Shown here in pieces: positions 4,570 to 50,875 of a DNA stretch of 64,000 nt. Both the position numbers and the translations under genes were made by a program. Every line of letters starts with the position of its first letter. Position 1 is the stretch's first letter. The notes under the pieces were generated by a model. The model made no database searches and had not been told where the DNA came from. It saw nothing but the letters and a program-made list of their open reading frames with translations. Origin of the DNA: Cenococcum geophilum 1.58 (taxonomy: Eukaryota; Ascomycota; Dothideomycetes; Gloniales; Gloniaceae). The stretch spans positions 459,645 through 523,644 of the forward strand of contig KV748190.1 of assembly GCA_001692895.1 (NCBI GenBank), written 5' to 3'.

Positions 4570-6261
4570 TGCTAGTTACACTTCGAAAGGTTTCCTGGGT
4601 CACTTCACTAATGCCTAGTCCATTTGGTTAGTGTCCTCTGGTCGTTCGTATCTTCATCTAGCTCATATAAGTGAAACATACGGTAGGGATTCGCTTTACA
4701 AAAGTTTGCAGTGTCTGGTCGATAATCTTGTGAGCAATATTAGGCCCTCTCGCACGTATTGCGCTGAACATTCTTCTCACGGCCGACGCCGATCCTGTCC
4801 ACCGAATGAATGCCGCTCGATCACCGTGGCGTCGCTCGAGCTAATACAATCCCTCAAGCTGGAAGCAGATCGGGAGCACTTGGTTTGCTGTTTTGGTGAA
4901 GATAGACACGCTTTCCTGCGCTCCAAGGTAGCTTCGAGTGCAGCCGTGCGTGGTAATTGCTAGGTTGTACTCTACCAATTTCATACTTAACAGTATTGTG
5001 ATAGTATTCTGGCCGTGATATGCCCGACTGTGAGGCCCGCATAGATGCCGTGGTGTTTGATCTCATCAACTTCATCAAGTCCAAATATCTTTCTCGGTGA
5101 CCAGATTTCCGGTCATCCGACTGTGGCCCAGCAGCACATTTCTTCACCTTAGACGTTATCACCGATCTCATTTACGGCAAACCATTTGGGTATATAACCA
5201 AGAACGAGGATGTCCTGTCATCTCTACGGAATGTCCGGACCATACTGACACTACATTTTCTCGCTGCTCCATTCCTGCTCCTAGCTAAACTCCTCGGCGA
5301 CCCATGTACTGACACTACATTTTCTCGCTGCTCCATTCCTGCTCCTAGCTAAACTCCTCGGCGACCCATGTACTGACACTACATTTTCTCGCTGCTCCAT
5401 TCCTGCTCCTAGCTAAACTCCTCGGCGACCCATGGATGTTCAAGATGGCAGGCCGCATGGTCCGGAGATTTGGTTTTGACAGCCTCAAAGGGTGACCATT
5501 CTCCCCCCAATCTTCCTATCTACCTCTCACACGGAGAATATTCGCATCTGACGCATACCAAATCTCTCTGCAGGCTAGCCCACTCACACCATGGCGCCTC
5601 GCAGCCCGCCTCTCCCGCAATCGCCTCTTTCACAGCCCGCGGCCTCACCCCCGCTGACGCCGCCGACGAAGCCCTAGTCCGACTGCGCATCCCCTCCCCA
5701 CCCCTCCCTTCCCCGCCCCACTATATTCACCCAACTAATCCGCCCACCAGCCTCGCAGGCTTCGACTCCATCGCCACCGCCCTGCGCCACACCCTCCTCC
5801 GCATCCTCAGCTCCCCAACCGCCCACGCCCGCCTCCTCGCCGAGCTCCGCACCCTACCGCACCCTCCCGACCCCACCGTCTCCGAAACTACCATCAACCA
5901 CCTCCCCTACCTCCGCGCCTTCATCCTCGAGTCCCTCCGCCTCTTCCCGCTCCTAACGCCCTACCTCCTCAAGCGCTGCCTAGCCGCCGGTGCCACGCTG
6001 CCCGACGGCACGCGCATCCCCGGCGGGATAGAGGCGGTGGTCTCCTTCGTCGCGTTGCGGCGAGACAGGTCTGTTTACGGGGAGGACGTGGGGTGTTTCC
6101 GGCCGGAGCGGGGGGTCATGGAGTGACAGGTCGGGCTGGTGTTTATGAGTGGGCGGTTTCAGTGCTTGGGGAAGAGTTTGGTGCTGTTGGAGGTAAGGAA
6201 GGCGGTCGGGGAGCTGGTGAGGCGGTTTGAGATGAGCGTTGTAGATCTCGCGGGGGTGTGA
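4570..6261 (+). pseudogene. cytochrome P450, pisatin-demethylase-like, decayed
   Basis: Fragments run in P450 order through several frames. They are an N-terminal piece (SYLHLAHISETYG near 4650), GPLARIAL..LLTADADPVHRMNAARS (about 4743-4820), GEDRHAFLRSKVAS (about 4895-4935), a C/D-helix region ending FTLDVITDLIYGKPFGY (about 5140-5195), the I-helix start AGFDSIATALR (about 5755-5790), the K-helix ExxR in ESLRLFP (about 5928-5950), the PERF-like DVGCFRPER, and the haem loop FMSGRFQCLGKSL (about 6140-6180) with its Cys ligand. The order and wording match fungal pisatin-demethylase-like P450s. Breaks include several in the N-terminal third, an exact 64-bp triplication at 5243-5434 that adds 128 bp and shifts frame, and an in-frame TGA at 6124-6126 where a Trp would be expected before the haem loop. 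The 3' third (5560-6260) is GC-rich and nearly intact, so the gene probably died fairly recently. Confidence 0.88.
5243..5434. repeat. three exact tandem copies of a 64-bp unit
   Basis: Copies at 5243-5306, 5307-5370 and 5371-5434 are identical by eye. The unit lies inside the P450 fossil. With a single copy the reading runs without interruption from VRTILTLHF through LLLAKLLGDP to WMFKMAGR; the two extra copies add 128 bp and break the frame. Confidence 0.97.
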
Positions 6262-7365: not shown

Positions 7366-10300
7366 CTAATCCGAAAGGTCATCCTCATTTTCTACCGCGC
7401 TCCCGTATTCTGACTCATCCTCACCAATGACACTAATCTCTCTTGTTGCTGTCTTAACCTTCCTTGGTTTCAACAAAGCATACATGCTCCACTTGATGGT
7501 TCTTTCTGTGCCACTAGCAGTTGCCTTTATATATGCCAAATCGTTTCCTGCAAGGTGGAATGCAAAGGTACCGTTTTGGCCGAAGCTATGAAATAGCTTG
7601 AACAATGCCGAGGCCTTCAACAGCTGCCAATGTGTCCGGCCGCCAGGGATGCTCTGCACCCAACGACTGATGACTCGATCAGTCAAGTTGGTAGGCATTA
7701 TGGCTTTATAGACATTGTAGCAGTCTTCAACACAATCGTTGTAAATCTCGAAAACGAAAGCGTCGCCATGCTTCTTAATCCGAGTAATCCACATCTGATG
7801 TAATTCCGTAAGCTCCTCCCTAAGCATCTGCAGTTCTGATTGGATCACGGACTCAGCAGAGCCATTCTCTGTGACATAGGGATACTGCAAATCAGAGTCC
7901 CAATCTGTACCGCCCGCGAATGCATCCCTGACTTTGCGAATGGTTTCCTTAGTGTGCGGCTCGAGAACCTTGAAGTAGAGGTAATCGCAAATTTTGCTGA
8001 AGTCAGGGTGCGTCTTCGCCGCGTTGGAATCGTTGGACACATTCTTTCTTTTCATGTTTTCCTCCATAGCGATTCTGTAAGCGGGGACGGGAGGATTTTT
8101 CTTTTCGATATGTGGATTCTCCTGAATTAGTCGTTGGTAGGTAGCATCGTCTAACGTGTAGCCATTTTTAGAAGAGTCTACCAGTAAGTCATGAACATCG
8201 CTCATAGCATTGATTCCACGGGAATGAATGCGGTTTTCCCAATAGGAGAGCCTCTCGTGAAATTTGGTTGCTCTCCCTAGAAGACTATTGGAACATCGGA
8301 ATATGAAACTTGGTTCCAAAAACCTGTTTATGTCGGTCGAATTATCTCCCATTACATCTCCAAGGGTCCTTTGATCTACATGGATCCCGTAATCCTCTGG
8401 ACGAGGTGTTTTGGTGGGAGCCGGCGCGTTCTTGAAGGGCTTTACAAGTTCTGGTTCCCAACAAGTCCAGAAAATATCCCCATCGTAGTCCCCACCTTGG
8501 AGTTTTCCAGCGAGAGGATACGTTCCACGTACTGGAAATACTATAACATCGACAAAGTGTGCAAGCTCGTGTTTGAAAACAGCACGAACTTTCTGGATGT
8601 CTGATCGTCGACAAGCAGGTTGACGCCCAACAAGGACTTCCATGTTATTTAAATTTGGGTAGCTCTCTCCGGACAGTTTGTCTACGAAGTTGTTCGAGAA
8701 ATGGACATGGACTTCACCGGGCTCGAGAACTCCTTCTAGATCAACGATGCCAATAAGATTTGTTGCTTTGCCCAAATGAATTCGGAGGTTCCGCTTCATG
8801 AATTCAAGTTGTTTCTCAAGAAAGCGCTGAAACAAATCTGCCAGGTATTTGAACTTTACGGGTGAGAATCCAGCCTCAAGAAGAAGTATGATCTTCTCGC
8901 TCAATGCTATGGGTAGGTTCGCTTGCCATGCTATCCCTCGGTTTCGGTTACCTTCTTCCATGACAGAAGCCTGCTCATTGATCCATTTCCTTAGGCGTTC
9001 AGGGTATGCGATCAGCTCCAGCAGTTCATTCCTTTCAAAGTCTAGACGTTCATTCATAAGTTGAATGAGTTTCTCTTTAGGTACGCCTCGATCAATCAAT
9101 ATCGGAATGAAGGCTATGTGAAGAGAAGAAGCTACAGGAGTCATCCCGTCCTTAACAATATCCAATGTCAATCGACTCGGGTCATAAGTCTTGTCATTGA
9201 GGTCTTCAGCATGTGAATCGAATTTTCGCTGTTCCTTGGTAATTTCAATCCACACATCTAAGTGAGATGGGTCAGTTGTGCCAAATGGTGCACTCAGCAT
9301 CCAGACCCCTTTGGCACCTCCAATCCTACCCTGGAAGGTGCATGGCATCTTATAGGCTTTGTTGTAGCCTTTCCAGATTTCGCGAACGGCTCCTACCGAT
9401 ATTCGAGAGCAACCGTCATTCATGATGGCAGGATCTGTAGGATCATAGTTTTCATCCCATTGAATATTCAGGTCGTTGAATCGTGTGTCTTCCTGAGTGC
9501 CATTGGCACCAATGTCTAGGCCCTCCCTCAATTGTGACGGCCGGAAGACTAAACCCGGGGTAGTCTTCGAATGGCCGAGCTCCAGACGTGCGTAAGCTTT
9601 GCAGAACGTCATTCCAGCATTCAATTTCAATGGTATGAACCAGTTGATTATCTCGTAGATGGTCAACTCTGGCTTTAGGGAGTGGTACATATGGTTGCGT
9701 AGTCCTTTCGAATGGTCAGACTTCGGTAGTATATCACAGCCGGAAGTCGCGAAGAGCACTATCTTTAAACCAAAAGCTCCTTCTGGTCGGTTGGTAGACT
9801 TCTTGTCTGACTTAGGGCCTACGAAATACACGCGCCACTTTCTTCCAAGAAATGTGTGCTCTCGAAGCATCCATTCCTGAAATCCCTGGAGAACGTGTTG
9901 TGTCTGACCCGTGATATGCGGTGGAAGTTTTAAAAATGATGGGACAGATAGATACAGGAATCGGTCTGCTCCGAAGGCTCGCTGGAACCGGCAAGAGGGT
10001 AAGGATTGTAAGGTATCTAGACGTAGATTGAAAAGCGGGCCATTCTTATCCGTGTTGAAGGTGAGCTTTCCTTTGAAGGTGTAACCTTCAAAATCTTTCT
10101 CTGCGGCTGACCATGCTTTCCTAGATTCTCGTCTTCGTAGTTTGGAGCAGGCAGGAATTTTTAATATGGTTTCCCAGAATTTATCATAATCACCATAATC
10201 TGGGTCGTATTCGGACATTATGTCTTCTGGGCGTACCTTGCTTTCTAGAGCAATACGAAAACATTCCCAGCGGATGATGAACGGTGCATCTCTCATCCCT

Positions 10301-11861
10301 TGTGGCATTTCATGAATGGTCAGACCTTGCCTGGGAATATCACGAACTTGGTACTGAACACCCGAGCGTTTGCTTGGGCTAGTATCACAAGTCCTATTCG
10401 CACCTTCTGAAGTTGCGATAGCAAGATGTCTACTCTTAGCATCGTGGCCCTTCTGTCCGAACTCTGTTTCATTCTCTTCATTAGTATCGAGGGAAAGATC
10501 ATTTAGAGGTTGTGATAGGGGTGCTTCATGTGATTCACACGCCTTTAGAGCTTTGAGTGATGCGTCGTCATCCAAAGATTCTCTCGTCGCTGAGCTACTG
10601 GGAGCGGGGCTAGAAGCCAAGTCCGGATAATCAACATCATCGGGCTCCGTAATTTCGGTGGAAAATGATATATTCGCTGTAGCTGTGGTCCTGTAGCCAT
10701 CGCCTGAGAATACTGTGGAATATGACGTGGTACTTGAAGTGGCAGTAGAGTCGAAACTAGTATTTGCTGTTGATACATTCGGTGCGGAGATTGAGAATGA
10801 ACCATGAGGACGGTTTTGCAACCCCCAATCCGGGACGTCCTGATCAGGTTCTCGAGGTTGTCTTCCATATGGAGTCTTCGAAAATTTTGAGGATTGCTCT
10901 TCGCCCACAGAACTCTCGGATAACCTCTTTTTTGGCTTAGCACGCTCAAGAAGATTATCCAATGCTTCGGGGTTTCGTACCGGTGGACCCATCTGCACGT
11001 GCCTATTAGGAGCCTTGGCAGCTAGCGTGGGTGATTCCGGAGGAGTTGTGTATTCGTCCTCTTCATCCGTTGGTGTCCCCGGTTGTGTTGTATGTGCAGG
11101 GGTATAGGCAGAAGTTTCAGTCCCCGCAATTCCACGGTGAACCCTCACGTCTTCAGTGTCTATAGTAAGATTGTGGCCAACTGTGACCGAGAAAGCGTCA
11201 GTATAGCACAACATACCTCCATGATTCTACATAAGGTGATTTCATCTCGTCTCGCTTCAGGCCGACAGAATAGAAAATGACACTATTGGCTAGATCTTGA
11301 GCATGGGGAAACTCGATCGGGGGAACACAGCACCGCATCATCTACATGGAGAGGTAAAGTAGAAGGATAGAGGATATTGGCGGGAAGTACCCGATCCAAT
11401 GAGGCTGGATTACCCTGTCGAGGCATCTACAAAATAGAGTGCGGTCGCTTACCCAGAGGTGAACGGAGATTATGGACGGGACTTTGGTGGCGGCCTGAAT
11501 CCTTCTGCCCAAATGGGCTACCAATCTCCTCAGTCAGCAGCCTCAGTAAATAATCCAATTTCTCAGAACCTGAGGGCTTCTCTGACGCATGAGAGTTGAA
11601 CTCTGCTAAAATCCGGTCGAGTGGCTTCCCCTTTTTGAAGTACACGCGTTGGATCTTGTTATATACCTTGTCAGGGATAGAACCACTGCTAGTGCTTGGA
11701 GAAAAGAGTTTATCTCGAACGGACAGGCCAAGGCCCCAGCGGCTCTCTAATGACAGGACAATTTCATTGATCTCATCTCCGGGCCTGCGACTGGGTGTGC
11801 ATGGTGGTGCAACTGGTTCACTCTCGATACGTTCGGTATGTTCGGGTGGTCGGGGACTCAT
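7366..11861 (-). CDS. RNA-dependent RNA polymerase (QDE-1/SAD-1/RDR family)
   Basis: Cell-encoded RNA-dependent RNA polymerases make double-stranded RNA for quelling or meiotic silencing. The main exon (about 11164 to 7366) carries a disordered Ser/Thr-rich N-terminus, then the double-psi beta-barrel core. The catalytic loop QGGDYDGDIFW at about 8466-8500, roughly residue 905 of the long frame, has the three metal-binding aspartates of the family DxDGD motif. Other family signatures are RVYFVGPKSDKK, YARLELGHSKTTPGLVF and a conserved C-terminal region. An upstream frame (11861-11453, MSPRPPEHTER..) contains VYNKIQRVYFKKGKPLDRIL, fits the N-terminus of fungal homologues and ends at a GTAAGC donor (11452). 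Exons between 11452 and about 11164 are not resolved: a clear GTATGT..CTGAC..ATAG intron lies at about 11216-11160, and a frame open near 11425-11290 is a candidate middle exon but does not join in phase. The Met at 11214 is probably inside an intron. I cannot say whether it is the QDE-1, SAD-1 or RRP-3 type. Confidence 0.92.
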
Positions 11862-15440: not shown

Positions 15441-15568
15441 CATGTGAAGTGCATTTTACCTTCGACTCTCATTCGACACTGTCGATTAGATAATTATACG
15501 TTCCCATGTGAAGTGCATTTTACCTTCGACTCTCATTCGACACTGTCGATTAGATAATTATACGTTCC
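15441..15568. repeat. exact tandem duplication of a 64-bp unit
   Basis: Copies at 15441-15504 and 15505-15568 are identical by eye. The second copy ends exactly where the copia solo LTR begins, so the last 5 bp of the unit, GTTCC, serve as the LTR's left target-site duplicate. Confidence 0.95.
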
Positions 15569-23894: not shown

Positions 23895-25348
23895 TAATAT
23901 AAACGAATTTAAACGAGGATTCCGGAACGAGGTCAATATACTACGGAGACTGTTCCCTCACATATCATCCGTGCATTTGCAACATGGGCTTGGGCCGGGA
24001 GCTCGGCATAGTTCTCACCCCGGTTGCTGACGGTGGAAATCTCGCGTGTTATCTTCAAACCATACTGGACCTAGGAAATCCCCCAACGACAGAACAATGC
24101 ATTGTCCTTAATCAGGCCTTCAGATGCCTTGCTAGCGGCCCCGCAATTATCCACAAGCAAACAATTCGACATAAAGATATTAAACCACAAAATATCCTCA
24201 TCCATCAAGGCTGCGTTGTCTATACTGATTTCGGCATCGCACTGGACACAAGTCAGCTCGATAATACCACCACAGACGGGACAGCTCAAGCATTCACTTT
24301 CCGTTATTGCGCCCCCGAAGTTGCACTGTCAGATAAGAGAAATAGAAAATCAGACGTTTTCTCTCTCGGATGTGTGTTCACAGAGATATTATCGGTGCTT
24401 GAACCTCAAATTCAACTACCACAGCTCGGAAGAACTGCTTACCATAAGATTATTGAGGATCTTCAAGGTGTCCTGAATTATTCTAAGCAGGCTAGCCCAC
24501 AGAGAAGCCAGTTGTTTCATGCTTGTCTCAATATGTTGGAGCGCAGACCCCAAGATCGAATCAGTGCTGAGGAACTTGTTAGAGAGCTAGATTTATTAAG
24601 GGAGCCGAAGGGAAATCTCATCTTTGAATACTTTTGTAATGCTTGTGCTCCGGTAAAAGAGTCTGAGAGTACTAATATTGCAACACCATTGCTCGGTGAA
24701 TTGGGTAAGTCAATGCCTATTGGGTCTCATCTACCTTCTGTTTCTCAAATCAACACAGACAGTGTGCCACAAAAGGAAAAACACCAAGACTCATTCAGCA
24801 GTACTACTACCTACGCGGACCACCAAGTACGGTATGAGACTCAAGGAGGGGCTGAAGTGCAAAAACACCGAAAACCATTAGTGCAGATAATCAAGCCTTC
24901 TTCTGGTGACTTCTGGGGCGTGGCGTTTTCACCAGATGGCAAGCTGCTGTCATTTGGATTATATGGCGGGATGGTTGAGCTCTGGGACTTAACGTCGGCG
25001 ACGATAGCGCTGCGCGGTCGGCTCAAGGTCCATTCAAATGGGGTCTGGGGCGTGGCATTCTCGCCAGACGGCAAGCTGCTAGCATTTGGATCTCATGACG
25101 GGACGGTTGGACTCTGGGACTTGACGATGGCGGCGCTGCACAGTCTACTTCAGGGCCATTCAAGTGGCGTCAGGAGCATGGCGTTCTCATTAGACGGCAA
25201 GCTGCTAGCATCCGGATCTCATGACGGGACGGTTAGACTCTGGGACTTGACGACGGTAACGGCAGTGACGGTGATGGCGACTGCGCTGAGAGAACCCCCT
25301 TTGGCTTCTCTACTATCGTTTTCGAAAGTATTGCGAAAATTCAATTAA

Positions 25349-29671: not shown

Positions 29672-32600
29672 TATTATGTTATAATATTTAATTACGCTGT
29701 TGCGGCTCCCGTTAGGGTCTATGTAGTGGGTTTATATGGGTATATATATATATATGTATAAGAGGGGAACCGTACCGCTGGGGCTAGATAAAACCTCTTC
29801 TTCTCTTATTATACGGCCTATATGGCTTATTATACGGCCTATATAGCCTCTTTTCTGATTAGTAACTGCTAAGCATAAGTAGATGTCTCTTTAAGGCGCT
29901 ATAGAAAAGCCATCTTAATGCGTACTCCTGGGTCTGTCTAGTAGGGTATATAGCTAAGGCCTAGGTTCCGTTTCTAGCTGCTCTAGTTATCTAGATAGGG
30001 TATAGGCTAGTGGCCTATAAGGCTAGTAGTGGTGTAGAAGGTTCCGTTATTTATATCTACGTTAATGTATATAGCTCTGTACCTTGCTAAGTTTTATTAA
30101 GTTCTATTAGGATATTAACCTTTACTAAATTCTGCTAGGTTACTAAATTCTGTTAAATTCTGCTAGGTTGCCAAAGTTCTGCTAACTTCTGTTAGGTTAT
30201 TAGATTTTGCTAGGTTGCTAAGATTCTGCTAAATTTTATTAGGTTACTAAAACTCTACTAAATTCTATTAGGTTGCTAAAATTCTGCTAACTTCTATTAG
30301 GTTGCTAAATTCTACTAAATTCTACCAGGTTAATAAGTTCTGCCGAATTTTACTAGGTTGCTAGAGTTCTACTAACTTTTACTAGGTTGCTATCTGTAAA
30401 ATTCTACTATATTCTACTATCCCTATAGTATTTATCCTCTACCTCTTAAAGTACTTCCTAGCCTTCTCTTTTTACCCTAGCTAGCTCTCTAGCAAATAAA
30501 AGGTGTAGTAAGAGGTTTGTCTATATAAACTAGTCCGTAACTACCTTAGTAGCCTTTAGCTTAGTTAGGAGCTCTTTATATAAGGATGTTTTAGTATAGT
30601 AATATATTTCCGCCTAGCTAGCAGCATGTCTGGGGCAGAATACTACTACATATATTATTAATTATTGGCTATAGCCGTATAGGTAGGCCAGGGTTGGGTG
30701 CCCTGGTACTTTTTAGTAGTAGAGGTATCTATTAAGCCCTATATGCTTAGTTCTAAGTAGCGTATTAATTATGCTCTCTACCTTTATAAGCCTTACGTGG
30801 CGTTTAAAGACTTTCTTATTCTATAGCTCGGCCTAGGCCGTTGTATAGTAGGTAAGCGTGCTTTAGTACTTTTTCTATTCCCTTTTCTACCGCTTTTTAA
30901 ACGCCTCTTGTACCCTAGCCCTTCTACTTCTCTTATACTGCGCTTTAGATAAGTCTATTAGCTATATATTTGTCCCTAAGATAGCGGCCGCTATCCTCTT
31001 AAGCTTATACCGTCTAGTGGGCCATATTAGTAGCTTTATTCTAGGCCGGAGTTAGTAGGCTATTGTGGCCCGTATAGTATTATATTCCCTCTTAATATGC
31101 TCTCTTACTAGTCCTTCCCATGTTCTTTCCGCGTAGGCTATAGCTAGCTCTTTAAGGTGTATCTAAAGCGGCGGAAACCCCGTCTTGTGCTTTAGTACTA
31201 CTATTAGCGTTAATTTATACGCCCCCGTAATAGTGCGGAGGTATAGGTTCTATACTACGCCCAGCTGGCGCAGCTTAGTTTTGCTTATTTTCTTAGGCTT
31301 CGTCTACTCTAGTAGCAAGTACTAGATACTATATCTATATAAGATTGCTAGCTGGATTATAGCGGAGTATATTATCCACGCCTTTTAGAAGGAGGCGCCC
31401 TATATAGAGGCCGTAAGCCGGGTTAGTATAGCTATTTAGGTAATCGCCTTTATCTTAATAATGTTAACGTACAGTCCCTATTTAAGCTTTAAGTTAACTT
31501 ATACCCCTAATATATATAGGTTACTAACTAGGCCTTCCGTGAAGCTATATATATTAGCTATAGCCTTTATATTAAACTTCTTATAGCTCCTTATAAAATA
31601 GATAAGGTAGTACTTTTTAGGGGTAAATACTACCCTATACCGGTGTGCCTACGCCATATATACCTTATACGCCCTTTCTATAGTTCTATAGTTTTCCTCT
31701 ATAGTCTTACTATATGTTAGTATATTAAAGTTGTTAACAAATCTAAATGCTGTAGTAGTTCCCCCTTATAACTCTGGTAGGAGTATATAGGTAAAAAAGA
31801 GGAATAGGATTGGCGATAGCGCTAAGCCTTAGGGTATACCAGTGTTTATTTATATTATTTATGCTATATATCCTCTAATTAAAAGCCTTATTATTTAATC
31901 CTTAAGGAAGGACTTTATAAACTGTACTATCTAGTAGGGTATAGCTTAGGCCTTTATATTATAGATTATTCTTTTATAAAAGACTTGGTTAAAGGCCCTA
32001 GAAATATTAAGGCTAAGTAATAAGGCTACTAGGTTTAGGTTACTCCTCCACACCATATATACCTATTGGGTTAGTAGCTCTAGTGCTGTCTATATTAAGT
32101 GCCCTAGCCTTACTCCTATTTAACTAGCCAGTAGCATACCTATCTCCTCCGTAATTTTGGATAGTTAGCTAGCTACTATTCTCTTAAGTAGCTTCCCAAT
32201 AGTGTTAAGTAGCGCAATTAGCTAGTAGGCCTTTGCCGTAGTATAGGATGGCTTCTATAGTTTCTGGAGAACTACTATAATAGAGTCTTTAAACGGTTTT
32301 AGGTAATATCTAATTGCTATATAGCTGCTAAAGAGTTTAGCTAGCACTAGGGCTAGCTACTCTCCGCACGTTTTAAGAAATTAGTTAGTAATCTTTTTTA
32401 GACCTAGGGCCTTATTAAGGGTAAGCCCCTTTAGGGCCGTAATAATGTCCTCCTCCTTAACTACTTCCTTTACTATTTGTGGCTCTGGGTATGCAAACCC
32501 TAGTATATTACTAAGGTCCGCCTCTACTAGCAGCGGGAAGAACTGCTCTATAAGGATAGTAGCCTTCTCCTTATTATTATGGTGTAGGGTCTCCTCTCCT

Positions 32601-39712: not shown

Positions 39713-42700
39713 ATAATAATAATAATAATAATAATTCATTGCTTAACGTCTGATTTGGATCCCTATTGGGCCTACGCGGACTACTCCTTATTTACATATA
39801 GGGAGAAAACTCTATTTAAGAAAAATAAGAAAACCCCGTGATCTATCTTCCCGCCTTTTAAGACTCGCCTACTTAGCGCCTATAAGTCGCCTATAGTGCT
39901 CTACTACCTTACTATTTANCCTCCTTAGGAACTACTGCTGCCGTAACAAGCCTACGGACGCGCTAGTATTATAAACTATTACTCTACTACTATAGAGTTA
40001 CTAGGGGGCACCTACTACTCGCCCCCTTGCCTTCTATTACCATTTCCCTTATAACCTAGAACTAATTTAGCATATTTTAACTAATAAGCCACTAGGTAAC
40101 CGCCTTAAGGCCTTTTTATATTAAGAGTAGTGTATTATAGTTCTTTGTGCCAGCTGCTAAGAGTATTATTTCTTAATTAGTGTGTAGGGGGCATAGNAGT
40201 ATTACGTATTTTAGTATCTGTCTTAGCTAGCCATATTTACATCTTAGGCTACCTACTAGAATACCTACCCAGTAAAGCCAATCTTTTAGTCCTATTATTC
40301 CTATTCTTAAGAGTATTGCTATTATATTTTCTGCCTTTATTAGGCCTTCTTAGAGCCCTTAGGTATTTATCCCCTATAGCGTTAACTATACTATAGCTTA
40401 GGTTTATCTTACCTAAGTTAGCCTTTATACCTTTAACTCCCATTTACCTTTTTAGCGTTAGTCCAACCAGTATTATATTACGGTAGATAGTTTCCTAGCA
40501 TTCTTGCGTGTTCTACTTTGGCTCCTTTCTCTATCTTACTATTATCTTTACTAACCTCTTACGCGTCTCCCTTCCTCCTCTATATAGGCCTAGGCCCTAA
40601 AGCGGCACTATTCTTCTTCTGCTTTCTTTACCTGTTTCTCTAATATCTCTTCCCTACTTTAGAGTTGTTAGTTTATTCTCCTACAGGGCACCCTAGGGTC
40701 CCTCTATAGTTTACTTAGGCGTGTCTTAATATACTTTATAATATTAGAGTTGCGTTTATTTTGCATCCTTTATATTACAGCAGCTTTAATATGTAACTAT
40801 AGGGGGGGAATATTGGATTCCTTCTTAAGTAGTGCTGTAGCCGTTCGCTTATACCCGCCTATAATACTCTAGAGGTAGGCTATCTAGACCTTTTAAAGTA
40901 GTTTAAGGAGTAATTTAGGGGGGCCCTTTTTAGTTTCTCTAATGGCCCAAATACTAGATCTATATATTATAGTTAGCTAGACAACTACTATATATAGTAG
41001 GCGTGACCTCTAAAAGCATGGACCCTATATAGAGTTAACAATCCTAGATAAAGCGATAAACTATGCTTAGCCTTTATAGGCCGCTTACGCCGTATATGCG
41101 CTCTACCGGAGCTTGCTGTCTACCTATACTCCTAATACCCTTAAGCCCTAAACTAGTTAACCCCTAAAGCCTTAGATGTAAATTATATACTAGAGATCTG
41201 TAGATTGGTTGCGTTTTCTTATAAAATGGATTAGCTAGTATTTCTTTAGTAAGAATTAAACTTTATAACGTTTTGCCTATTCTATATAAGTATTATAGGC
41301 TTTCTCTAGTGTTCTACAATTCTCTGCGGCTGTTAGCCTATATATAATTAGGTTTATATCGTTAATAAAGCCTATCCCCTAGGTCGCCCCTTCCTTAAAG
41401 GAGTCGAGTAGGTTGCTTATAAAGAAAAGGAAGAGTATAGGCGAGAGGGGTGATCCTTATGGTATTCCTATTACAACTATAATAGGGGGGCTCTGGTATC
41501 CGCTAAAGACCAGTAATGTTTCTTTCTGGCCTATAAACCCTTAGATAAATTATATAATCCATTCTAGGAAGCCCTTTACCCTAAGAATATATAGGAGACG
41601 CTTATAGGGTATATTATTGTAGGTACCACTAATGTCTAGGCTAAGTATTAATACTATAAAGTTCTTTCGCATTACCTATGCAGATTTAATAGTAGTAGCA
41701 AGTAGCATAAGTGCTAATAGTGTTAAGCGGTTCTTTCTTACCCCTATTTGGCTTTATGGTAGTAGGGCATGTTCCTCTACTGTGTCTGCTATGCGTTCCG
41801 CTATTACCCTTTCTAAGATCTTGCTAAGGGTGTTTTCTAAGGCAATAGGGCGGTAGCTTCCTAGGATTAAGTAATCTGCTTTACCTTCTTTTTATAAAAT
41901 AACCGTTGTTATAGATCTTCTAAGTCGTAGGTAGTAGCCTATAGCAAAGTATGCTCTAGCTATATCTGCAAGCTAAGGTGCTATAAGTAGCCCATAGGTT
42001 TTTAGGGCCTTATTTAGAATCCTATCTAATCCTAGTGCTATATTATTTAAAAGGCGGCTAATGGTTCTAGCCATTTCCTCTATTATTATATCGCTATTAA
42101 CCCATAGGCGAGTTACTAGTATTTTGCCCATGATATTACTAAGGTCTGCTAGAGCCAGTTAGGGGAAGAACCTTTCTATAAAGATCTTTACCTTCTTATT
42201 ATTGTCATTTATAGCCTATAATTCTCCTACTCTTTATAGGGGTAGTAGGTATAGGTCTTCTGCTAGACGCCCTACCTTTTTCTTTACCTATTTTGCTATA
42301 GCCTAAAGGCCCTTATTATGGGGGAGGCTTAGGTTAAAAGTGTGCTCGTTTATAAACCGTCTTTAGTTATTCCTTACTTCTTTTTTTAGAATATTCTTTA
42401 GCTAGTTTTTTATATCTTTAGGGTTATGGCTACTTATATATTTCCTTCTTACTCGTTATTAGCTAGTAACTAGAACTGTATATTATATAGACCATACATA
42501 TCGCGCGTAGGGGCCCGGTTTTAAAATCAGGCAGTACTCTTCTAGCCTATTTTTAATCGCTGCCTAGATCCTTTCTAGTCTTTAGTTAATTTCCTTAGGG
42601 GTGGCCAATAAACCTCGCTTGTTTGGTATTAGGTGGATTTCTTCTAGGTTTTAGAGTTGTTATTTAACTACATTAAGGAAACTGTCTATCTTAAGCTTCC

Positions 42701-46073: not shown

Positions 46074-47403
46074 GCCCGCGAAGCCCTACTATACACATCC
46101 ACGTTGCCGCGGGTGGAAACATCATTAGGAAATCGTTCCTTTTAATAGCCAAGTACAGAGGCGATGGTAGAGAGCCGTCGCAGCGCGTACAGCGCGCTGT
46201 CGCTGCGGTTCTATAGTGTTAAGCTCGCGACGCGTATATATTACCCTTAATAACACCAGAAGCCTTACTGCCTCCACTTAAGGCTCCTACTCTACTACCT
46301 AGGGAGGCCTATTAAGGGAAACTGGGATATAAAAACTACCTAATATATAACTACCTGGCTTATAGCTAGGCCTAAAACTGGCCTTATTATAGCTAGTTAA
46401 TGTAAATACGTCCTAGTTATATAACAGGACACCCTTAGGCTTACACTAGCTCTAAAATCGTAAAGGGATATAGTAAGAGCGTAAGGAACCTCTTTTTATA
46501 AGAACTTATTAAGGTTAACGCGTCGCAGATATCTTATATAAAACTTATTAAGGCCCTAAGGCCACCGCAAAGAACTTATTAAGGCCCTACTTAGAGAACT
46601 TATTAAGGCCCCCCTACTAAGGCCTATCTAGTATCCGACACCCAGGTGACTTAGAAGAGGGTCTTAATAGGTATAGTACGCGCGACCTGAACAGAGACGC
46701 GACAGCGACGTAATAGCGACGCGACGGCGACTAGACGGCTTAACAAGGTAGAAACACGGGCAAAGCTCTAGGTAGCGAAAACACAGGCCAGCTTTGACGG
46801 CCTTATAGCGTTTAACCTATAGTCGCAGGTGACTTACAGAAGGGTCTTAATAGGCGTAGTGTACGTAACCTAACGTATATATATATAAGGCGACTTATAG
46901 GAGGGTTTTAATAGGCGTAGTGTACGTAACCTAATACATATATATAGGGGAGGCTATAGGGGAAACATAGGCTAGTTAGACGAGGTTGCGACAGTTAGAG
47001 ATATAGGCTAGCTTATAAGAAGGGGGGACATAAGCTTAGTTAGTAGGAGAGGGGGGAATAGGTTACCTAGCACGGGACCTATTCTATAGCCCCCTCCTAT
47101 AAGATACGGTCGGCCTATTATAAGAAGACTCTTATAGGTAACGCGAAATGGGAACTGGTAGTAGTATAGGGTGTAGCGCCCCTATACTACTACAGCCTCC
47201 TATAGGGCGTAGTGCGTAATAGCTACTGCTAGCTCTAGGGACCTTACCCCTTAGCTAAGCTCTAACCCCTAGTACACCTAGTAGGTAGGTAGGATTATGT
47301 CCTAGCTAGAGAGACTACTACGTGGCTTAAAAGAATAGATGCGTGTGTTAGTGTACTAATAGATAGGACTGCTTGCTAGGGTAGTACGCTAGTAAGGTAC
47401 GCT

Positions 47404-48981
47404 CAGGCTTGGCGAAAATAAGGAAATACGATGTCGATCCAATATCGCTTATTGGCCAATAAAATATTGGTCAATATTGGGTTATTGGCCAATATAGACC
47501 GGAAAATTATATTTCCGCAACATTAAAATACATTTAACCATCACAAATTATTATATTGTTAGTAAGGAGTTTTAAAGTAATAAATATATATTTATAAGTC
47601 TATCTAAAGTCGATTTCTAGTATATTAGGGCTTAATTGGCTGGTGAATTTGGCCCCAATCGCCATAGCTCTGCGGAAGCTCTGCACGAAGCTCTGCGTAC
47701 GGAGGCTCTGCACGAAGCTCTGCGGAGGCTTTGCGCGAAGCTCTGCGAGCTCTGCGCGAAGCTCTGCACGAAGCTCTGCGCGAAGCTCTGCACGAAGCTG
47801 CGCGAAGCTCTGCACAAAGCTCTGCGCGAAGCTCTGCGTACCGAGGCTCTGCACGAAGCTCTGTACGAAGCTTTGCATACGGAGGCTCTGCAGAACGGCT
47901 CTGCGTACGACGGTTCTGGACGGCTCTACTACGGAGGCTCTATATAAAAGCTTTGTGCAGAGCTTCGTGTAGAGCTTCGTGCAGAGCTTCGTGCAGAGCT
48001 TCGTGCAGAGCCTCCGTACGCAGAGCTTCGTGCAGAGCTTCGCGCAGAGCTTTGTGCAGAGCTTCGCGCAGAGCTTCGCGCAGAGCTTCGCGCAGAGCTT
48101 TGTGCAGAGCTTCGCGCAGAGCTTTGTGCAGAGCTTCGCGCAGAGCTTCGTGCAGAGCTTCGCGCAGAGCTTTGTGCAGAGCTTCGCGCAGAGCTTTGTG
48201 CAGAGCTTCGCGCAGAGCTTCGTGCAGAGCTTCGCGCAGAGCTTCGCGCAAAGCCTCCGCAGAGCTTCGTGCAGAGCCTCCGTACGCAGAGCTTCTTGCA
48301 GAGCCTCCGTACGCAGAGCTTCGCGCAGAGCTTCGTGCAGAGCTTCGCGCAGAGCTTCGTGCAGAGCTTCGTGCAGAGCTTCGCGCAAAGCCTCCGCAGA
48401 GCCTCGTGCAGAGCCTCCCGACGCAGAGCTTCGTGCAGAGCCTCCGCAGAGCTTCGTGCAGAGCCTCCGTACGCAGAGCTTCGTGCAGAGCCTCCGCAGA
48501 GCTTCGTGCAGAGCCTCCGTACGCAGAGCTTCGTGCAGAGCCTCCGTACGCAGAGCTTCGTGCAGAGCTTCGTGCAGAGCTTCGCGCAGAGTTTCGTGCA
48601 AAGCCTCCGCAGAGCTTCGTGTAGAGCCTCCGTACGCAGAGCTTCGTGCAGAGCTTCGTGCAGAGCTTCGCGCAGAGTTTCGTGCAAAGCCTCCGCAGAG
48701 CTTCGTGCAGAGCCTCCGTGTGTCACGTTATAGCACTAGATTTTGGGGTTCCTTTTGTCTTTTAATCCCTCCGTACTAGTAGATAGTATAGAATTTAATA
48801 TTTCATTATTAGAAGCCATTTTATTATATATATAATAAATATTATAAAAGAAATTTAGAGTTGTAGGGAATGCCAAGAATTATTGGCCGATATTGGCCGA
48901 TATTGGGTAATTTAGCGATATTGGCCAATACCAAATATTGGCCAATAATATTGACCGTCGGATTATTTTCGCCTACACTGC
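47404..48981. mobile_element. hAT-like non-autonomous foldback element carrying a minisatellite
   Basis: The 8-bp direct repeat GGTACGCT flanks it at 47396-47403 and 48982-48989, as in hAT elements. The ends are CAGGCTTGGCGAAAATAA and, reverse-complemented, GCAGTGTAGGCGAAAATAAT. Subterminal TATTGGCCAATA palindromes follow on both sides (47440-47500, 48880-48950). The centre is a 1.06-kb minisatellite. The element keeps abundant CpA and TpG while the LINE around it is depleted, so it arrived after that LINE was mutated. No transposase is present. The right boundary could be off by one base. Confidence 0.82.
47666..48722. repeat. 12-bp minisatellite in two opposite-facing blocks
   Basis: The unit is CAGAGCTTCGTG/CAGAGCTTCGCG with a 15-bp variant CAGAGCCTCCGTACG. 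From 47666 to about 47940 it runs on the minus strand (GAAGCTCTGCGC on plus); from about 47958 to 48722 it runs on plus. The whole array is an imperfect palindrome with a spacer of about 30-60 bp. Because 12 and 15 are multiples of three and the unit has no stop, every frame is open, which creates long spurious ORFs. Confidence 0.95.
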
Positions 48982-50875
48982 GGTACGCTTAAGGAGCAAA
49001 CAGGAGTTACTTAGGCGGGGGAGGCTTTTTAACTAGGCCTTAACTGTAGAAGGTACCTAAGGCTTCCACATTACAGGATATAGCTACGACGCCCTTATAG
49101 GATTACGTCAGTAGGCGCGTAAGATAGGAGTTACGACCCCTGTAAATAGCAGCTTAAGCCTGTGCCGGCGAAAATGATAATAAGAGGCGTAAAACTAGAG
49201 GCTATAGAAGGCTCCTAAGCTGTGCGAAAGCGTACTAACTCTAAAAGGAGACTCTTATATAGACTGCTAGGGGGCAGACTAGTACTTAGGTTAATCCTAT
49301 TATAAGATACCCAAAAGAACTAGTGAAATTCCCCGTGTTATTAGTGGTAGCAGCTAACTGCTTATAAAAAGCCCTAAGCCCTAGGGCTTAGTAAGGGAAA
49401 GCTACTTAAAAACTAAGGTAGAGGCCTAGATAAGTAGGCATATTAAACTCTACTATATAACTACCTAGCTTTAGTAGAGCGTATATACGGCGTAAGCGGC
49501 CCATAAGGGCCAAGTATAGTATATCGCATTATCTAGGATCGTTAATTTTACATAGGGTCTATACTTTTAGAGGTCACGCCTACTATATATAGTAGTTGTC
49601 CGGTTAACTATAATATATAGGTCTAGTATCTAGGCCATTAGAGAATCTAAGAAAGGCCCCCCTAAATCGCTCCTTAAACTACTCTAAAAGGTCTAAACAG
49701 CCTACCTTTGGAGTATAATAGGCGGATATAAGCGAACGGCCATAGCTCTACTTAAAAAGGAAGCTAATATTCCCCCCCTATAACTATATATTAAAGCCGC
49801 TATAATATAAAGGGCGTAAAAGGAACGCAACTCTAATGTTATAAAGTATATTAAGATACGCCTAAATAAACTATAGAGGGACCCTAGGGTGCCTTATAGG
49901 AGAACAAACTAACAACCCTAAAGTAGGGAAGATATATTAGAGAAATAGGTAAAGAAAGCAGAAGAAGAATAGTACTGCTTTAGGGCCTAGGCCTATATAG
50001 AGAAGGAAGGGAGACGCGTAAGAGGCTAGTAAAGATAATAGTAAGAGAGAGAAAGGAGCCAAAGTAGAGCATAAAAGAATGCTAGGAAACTATCTACCGT
50101 AATATAATACTGGCTAGACTAATGCTAGAGAGGTATATAGGAGTTAAAGGTACAGAGGCTAATTAAGGTAAGAGGAACCTAAGCTGTAGCATAGTTAACG
50201 CTATAGGGGGTAAATACCCTAGGGCTCTAAAAAGGCCTAATAAAGGNAGAAAATATAATAGTAACNCTCTTAAGAATAGGAATAATAGGACTAAAAGACT
50301 AGCTCTACTAGGTAGGTGTTCTAGTAAGTAGCCTAAGATATAAATATAGCTAGCTAAAACAGACACTAAAATATGTAATACTGTTATACCCCTTACACAC
50401 TAACTAAGAAGTAATACTCTTAATAGCTAGTATAGAGAACTATAAGACACTGCTTTTAATATAAAAAGGCCTTAAGGCGGTTACCTAGTGGCTTATTAGC
50501 TAAAATATACTAAACTAGTTCTAGGTTATAAAGGAAATANTAATANANNGTAGNGNGGTNAGNAANNGGNGCCCCCTAATNACTCTATAGNAGTAGAGTA
50601 AAGTNTNNAATACTAGCGCGTCCGTAGGCTANTTACGGTAGCAGTGGTTCCTAAGGAGGTTAAAAAGTAAGGTAGTAGGAGCACCATAGGTGACTCGCAG
50701 GCGCCTTGTAGGCGCCTCGCAGGCGAGTCCCAAGAGGCGGGGAGATGGATCTCGGGGTTTTCTCAAGTTGAGTCTTTCTTAAGTTAAGTTTTCTCCCTAT
50801 ATGTAAATAAGGAGTAGTCCGCGTGGGCCCAATAGGGATCCGAATCAGACGTTAAGTAATGAATTATTATTATTA

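Follow-up and report, generated by a model that had tools for sequence, protein, structure and literature searches.

The window, the whole 64-kb stretch of DNA that was analyzed (C15:459645-523644), contains on its minus strand an open frame that is 1,282 residues long and includes an RNA-dependent RNA polymerase domain (7366-11214; PF05183, E 1.4e-113). On the plus strand, a protein kinase domain and WD40 repeats are joined in one frame at 23984-25348, just before a stretch mutated by RIP. Perfect 64-bp tandem repeats that differ in sequence are located at 5243-5434 (three copies) and 15441-15568 (two copies). The subject of this study resides at 47404-48981 and is a 1,578-bp non-autonomous, composite hAT element, the parts of which are collected in the table below. 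The genome searched for related sequences comprises 177,193,698 bases in 162 contigs.

The element lies between two copies of an octamer that occurs just twice in the 64-kb window, once at each side. The left end reads CAGGCTTGGCGAAAATAA and the right end, on the other strand, reads CAGTGTAGGCGAAAATAA; these are short, imperfect terminal inverted repeats of the CAG type. One extra C separates the right end from its duplication. The subterminal TATTGGCCAATA repeats of the left arm are found at 47450 and 47483. The initial annotation held that an 8-bp duplication and CAG-type ends bound a non-autonomous, hAT-like element of 1.58 kb, and this is borne out by the sequence, by the other copies and by the empty site.

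Components of the composite hAT element and its target-site duplication (positions in the window)
Feature	Position	Strand	Evidence
Target-site duplication, left copy GGTACGCT	47396..47403	.	Single copy at the empty site in six of six relatives read
hAT-1 left arm, 134 bp: terminus CAGGCTTGGCGAAAATAA and subterminal TATTGGCCAATA repeats	47404..47537	+	90-94% to 12 long copies
3'-region segment of a pogo/Fot1-like (DDE_1) transposon, joined to the left arm of the hAT	about 47538..47665	+	90% to copy C3, 83% to C2
Foldback left arm: 12-bp minisatellite reading AGCTCTGCACGA, with variant units beside the core	47666..47920	+	Tandem-repeat and unit maps
Conserved 31-bp foldback core CGGCTCTACTACGGAGGCTCTATATAAAAGC	47921..47951	+	119 places genome-wide
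Foldback right arm: 12-bp minisatellite reading AGCTTCGTGCAG, inverted to the left arm	47952..48715	+	Tandem-repeat and unit maps
Remaining 13 bp of the terminal inverted repeat of the nested element, up to the TA target	48716..48728	+	Complete nested terminus here in C8b and C14
hAT-1 right arm: subterminal TATTGGCCAATA repeats, terminus ...CGCCTACACTG and extra C	48729..48981	+	83-96% to 12 long copies; alignment of 17 copies
Target-site duplication, right copy GGTACGCT	48982..48989	.	Found in the sequence and in the copy alignment

Searches of the genome returned 49 matches to the left arm with its adjoining segment and 23 matches to the right arm, which together define a family, hAT-1. The short motif GGCGAAAATAA alone was rejected as a marker of this family, being present at 138 places versus 284 for the reversed control. 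The 19-mer CAGGCTNGGCGAAAATAAG is found at 29 places with up to two mismatches versus five for its control, and each of its 15 places with zero or one mismatch is a known copy. The search for other copies with shared ends and 8-bp duplications of their own was successful. Among the 17 hAT-1 copies read at both ends, a count that leaves aside the error-laden C12 and C94 (cut off by a contig end, with the same left flank as C17a), identical duplications are present in 14, of which 11 abut the ends and three have one extra base. The remaining three (C31, C42 and C4b) have imperfect 8-mers. The single extra base between one end and the duplication is seen in the window copy, C17a and C17b.

Long copies, 3.5-5.6 kb in size, make up 12 of the 17. 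Similarity to the left arm begins only at position 11 in two of these, and similarity to the right arm is only partial in two. Five well-resolved copies bear the minisatellite (the window copy, C17a, C4a, C8b and C14), and they reside in different places with different 8-bp duplications; the mobile element carrying a minisatellite that had been proposed for this locus is real. A composite copy at L033/L080 (C12:6500-9650) has many small insertions and an A/C-rich stretch, oddities that are probably assembly errors near the contig end. C17a, C94 and C12 all lie near contig ends.

The coding relatives of the family are in decay. The decayed protein of the long copy C17b includes the hAT dimerisation domain (PF05699, Dimer_Tnp_hAT; E 2.6e-5, 24.3 bits versus a cut-off of 21.4), and the domain in the same protein piece of the long copy C39 scores 17.3 bits, below the cut-off. 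Decayed copies of the protein stretch upstream of the domain are present in the other long hAT-1 elements. No intact transposase was found, as a stretch of 309 residues, read without introns, has stops in all 128 places scored out of 676 candidates. Identity is at least 71% at 15 of the 128, and the remainder are more distant hATs. Nearly all of the stops are TAG or TAA, which is what RIP would leave. Foldback elements typically have long inverted repeats in their interior, and the locus could on that ground be assigned to a foldback element of some other superfamily, e.g., a Mutator-like one, with its likeness to hATs due to chance. This is extremely improbable given the 8-bp duplications, the CAG ends and the fact that a copy sharing these ends has a hAT dimerisation domain.

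Within the hAT arms, the minisatellite lies in the remnant of a second, pogo/Fot1-like element with a TA target. The pogo-like segment is present without the hAT arm in 20 of the left-arm query's 49 matches. The full-size relatives of the nested part encode a DDE_1 transposase (PF03184), as seen in two related coding copies, L056 (E 1.3e-6) and L055 (E 9.9e-7), which both contain the shared 3' segment. C8b and C14 are hAT-1 deletion copies, each with a complete TA-target element nested inside it. The hAT interior that precedes the TA target in these copies matches the long copies at 91-98% identity; in three of five the match covers 64 bp (92-98%), and in the remaining two it covers 58 and 46 bp. 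On the right, the end falls at the same TATAGCACTAG as in the window. The nested type also exists by itself as C45, an element of 899 bp with TA at both sides. The TA target and terminal inverted repeats of the nested element can be read in C45, C8b and C14, and only 13 bp of the terminus are kept in the window. The initial annotation had described the core of the element as a minisatellite and not as a deleted transposase. Both parts of this description stand, and the nested pogo/Fot1-like origin goes beyond it.

The foldback structure that had been noted from the sequence is confirmed by two mutually inverted 12-bp arrays placed around the 31-bp core. As detected, these arrays span 47666-47877 (17.8 copies) and 47949-48713 (62.2 copies). 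They are inverted arrays of short tandem subrepeats, as is expected of a foldback, and ungapped inverted pairs extend to at most 82 nt at 96%. Allowing up to three mismatches, 60 of the core's 119 places in the genome are exact, and the reversed control has none. A pattern of three array units occurs 14,730 times genome-wide versus 227 times for its control.

Deletion derivatives of hATs are common, and the element could be regarded as a hAT MITE whose minisatellite formed on the spot, when slippage acted on the decayed transposase between the arms. The variation of array length among copies is in keeping with such an origin. It is at odds with the presence of the same core and arrays in other carriers and with the terminus and 3' segment of the nested element that flank the arrays, and it would require the hAT-1 core to be the ancestor of all other cores. 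In-place origin is very improbable on these grounds, and the birth of the minisatellite from a transposase was rejected because the core is common to other carriers.

The flanks of 24 array loci, which are not a random sample, fall by our reading into seven groups with three loci outside. At least five carriers contain the module; three are hAT families, one is a pogo-like family and one, D, is unclassified. Among 100 listed core places, 55 could be assigned to a carrier, with 28 in hAT-3, 15 in D, six in hAT-2, four in the hAT-1 composite and two in the pogo-like family; none fell to two carriers, and 45 fell to none. The composite of the window type is thus a minor carrier compared with hAT-3 and D. 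These counts are lower bounds, because only 40 candidates each were scored for hAT-3 (of 237) and D (of 121). C10:773292 and C20:299491 stand outside the count, though they are grouped with hAT-3 and D by their flanks, and the five carriers exclude groups F (L089-L091) and G (L014, L088) as well as loci L086, L087 and L068.

The class of hAT-2 is based on one copy, L092, with a perfect terminal repeat of 18 bp and the duplication GACGAGCT. That of hAT-3 is based on PF05699 (E 8.5e-6); a pair of hAT-3 ends, both with the duplication, was not found in the loci read. A piggyBac-like transposase piece (PF13843, E 1.3e-9) adjoins the right end of hAT-3 in L094, at about 960-1501. The piggyBac identity once considered for this carrier was dropped, as the piece sits beyond the right end of the carrier, in which a hAT dimerisation domain is present. 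For carrier D, 13 of the 41 matches to a query of 119 bases stop at 68 or 69, just short of the side of the module, and these truncated matches suggest that module-free D copies exist.

The occurrence of one core in at least five carriers raises the question of whether the foldback minisatellite is itself an independently mobile element that inserts into transposons, or has spread by nesting and recombination. Independent mobility would account for the common core, for the AGAGGCTCCGCGTATAAAAGCTCTGC-like module ends seen in carrier D as well as in the element nested within C8b and C14, and for the D matches that stop as if module-free copies existed. Against this, the loci read show no duplication belonging to the module itself at its edges. 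At C6, the pogo-like copy is without about 220 bp of the carrier at the module site, which is not a clean insertion, and a module-free junction is crossed by none of 58 hAT-3 matches (40 of 237 candidates scored). An independently mobile module is therefore unlikely. We give a little less than an even chance to the broader proposal that the foldback minisatellite, with its conserved core, has travelled as a passenger among two or more DNA transposon superfamilies within one genome (three hAT families, a pogo-like family and the unclassified carrier), the minisatellite having spread as shared cargo and not by one carrier.

The arrays change between copies. When the window copy is compared with C17a, the compared stretches of the left arm (41 and 177 bp) and the right arm (260 bp) are identical, and C17a is without 50 bp of the left arm. 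The arrays number 63 and 16 units in the window versus 51 and 21 in C17a, in an order that is largely kept, with gains and losses. Part of this difference could be an assembly error, as C17a is near a contig end. With the arms as reference, the partial core of C4a (21 of 31 bp) has the opposite orientation to that of the window. The core of the pogo-like copy at C6 is inverted when the shared 3' segment is taken as reference. In 20 copies of hAT-3, the two module flanks are 106 to 1,455 bp apart, a spacing that is assumed to hold the arrays. Arrays may gain and lose units through slippage or unequal exchange, and the core may flip through recombination between the two inverted arrays.

The host repeat allows the empty site to be viewed directly. 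A query in which the flanks are joined without the element, with one duplication kept, is spanned across the junction in all 40 scored relatives (of 455 first-look candidates) at 86-93% identity. The empty site was thus found by alignment, and the single 8-mer was seen in every relative that was read. The identity of the host repeat as a LINE, as it had been called, is unconfirmed, since the sole frame tested (in the right flank) had no reverse-transcriptase match. Decayed pieces of LINE-type reverse transcriptase are located on the minus strand at 41253-41468, about 6 kb from the element, and at 31673-31840 (tblastn E 2e-11 and 0.001, respectively).

RIP indices differ between the element and its surroundings. 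The unique arms (522 bp) have a (CA+TG)/(AC+GT) ratio of 1.26 and a TA/AT ratio of 0.92, versus 0.35 and 0.39 for the former in the 2-kb flanks, where TA/AT is 2.04 on each side. This agrees with the claim that the element is rich in CpA/TpG in depleted surroundings. In the left arm, no C>T or G>A change separates the window copy from the consensus built on 17 copies. Changes of this kind make up more than half of the left-arm changes in eight of the 12 long copies, exactly half in three and fewer in one. The right arm provides no contrast, as four of its eight differences are C>T or G>A, not below many long copies.

The insertion in the window is recent, because its arms are free of RIP, the host has undergone RIP and the arms equal those of C17a. 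The earlier view that the element landed after RIP of the host repeat is supported by the composition of the arms, their identity to those of C17a and the empty site. The alternative offered with that view, that the element escapes RIP, is superfluous for the window copy and fails as a general rule, as the arrays at L087 and L089 are partly decayed. The use of the arrays as a RIP clock was rejected. Over the 24 array loci, their retention of CpA/TpG does not track that of the flanks (Spearman 0.015, p 0.94), and they are therefore no guide to the date of RIP.

Taken together, the locus is very probably a non-autonomous composite hAT, with hAT ends and an 8-bp duplication, in which the remnant of a nested TA-target element with its foldback minisatellite has moved as a whole unit. 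A hAT transposase made elsewhere would have recognised the arms with their TATTGGCCAATA repeats, and cut-and-paste transposition would have carried the whole unit, minisatellite included. The window copy would have moved in after RIP had mutated its host repeat. The foldback minisatellite represents a passenger module common to several DNA transposon families. At this locus, the movement of a minisatellite as the cargo of a transposon is documented by empty sites, duplications and unit-by-unit array maps. As one module can be traced across unrelated carriers in one genome, the origin of dispersed minisatellites becomes testable. It also raises the question of how a non-coding element stays mobile when every scored transposase copy is broken, mostly by TAG or TAA.

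Ordinary hAT MITEs, such as the Mar family of Drosophila, have hAT ends and an 8-bp duplication without a transposase. The present element differs from these in its interior, where a second element has been captured together with a minisatellite foldback that varies. The carriage of a minisatellite by a mobile element has known parallels in Drosophila and oysters, and the occurrence of one module across superfamilies is less usual. In the literature searched, which was mainly non-subscription and included the available portions of PMC9659126, PMC4522978, PMC7492417 and PMC4079207, there is no report of this element or module, and one foldback module across several cut-and-paste families was not met. 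Many further transposon-derived repeats are catalogued in a review (PMC9659126).

Two systems are closest in structure, as far as the available portions of their descriptions go. Tetris of Drosophila virilis is a non-autonomous foldback DNA transposon with tandem repeats in its inverted arms and ends in common with the MITE DAIBAM (PMC4079207). The present element is likewise a non-autonomous foldback with tandem repeats inside inverted arms. It differs in the length of the repeat, 12 bp versus about 220 bp in Tetris, and in that one foldback module is present in hAT, pogo-like and other carriers. The Cg_HINE Helentrons of the Pacific oyster are non-autonomous, with central tandem repeats, short arrays dispersed genome-wide and modular combinations of flanks and repeats (PMC7492417). 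The present system shares with the Cg_HINE elements non-autonomous members that carry and disperse tandem repeats, with flanks and repeats in modular combinations; Tetris, too, spreads the tandem repeats that it carries. Unlike the Cg_HINE elements, which are all classed as Helentrons, the carriers described here belong to several cut-and-paste families with 8-bp or TA targets, and their arrays are inverted.
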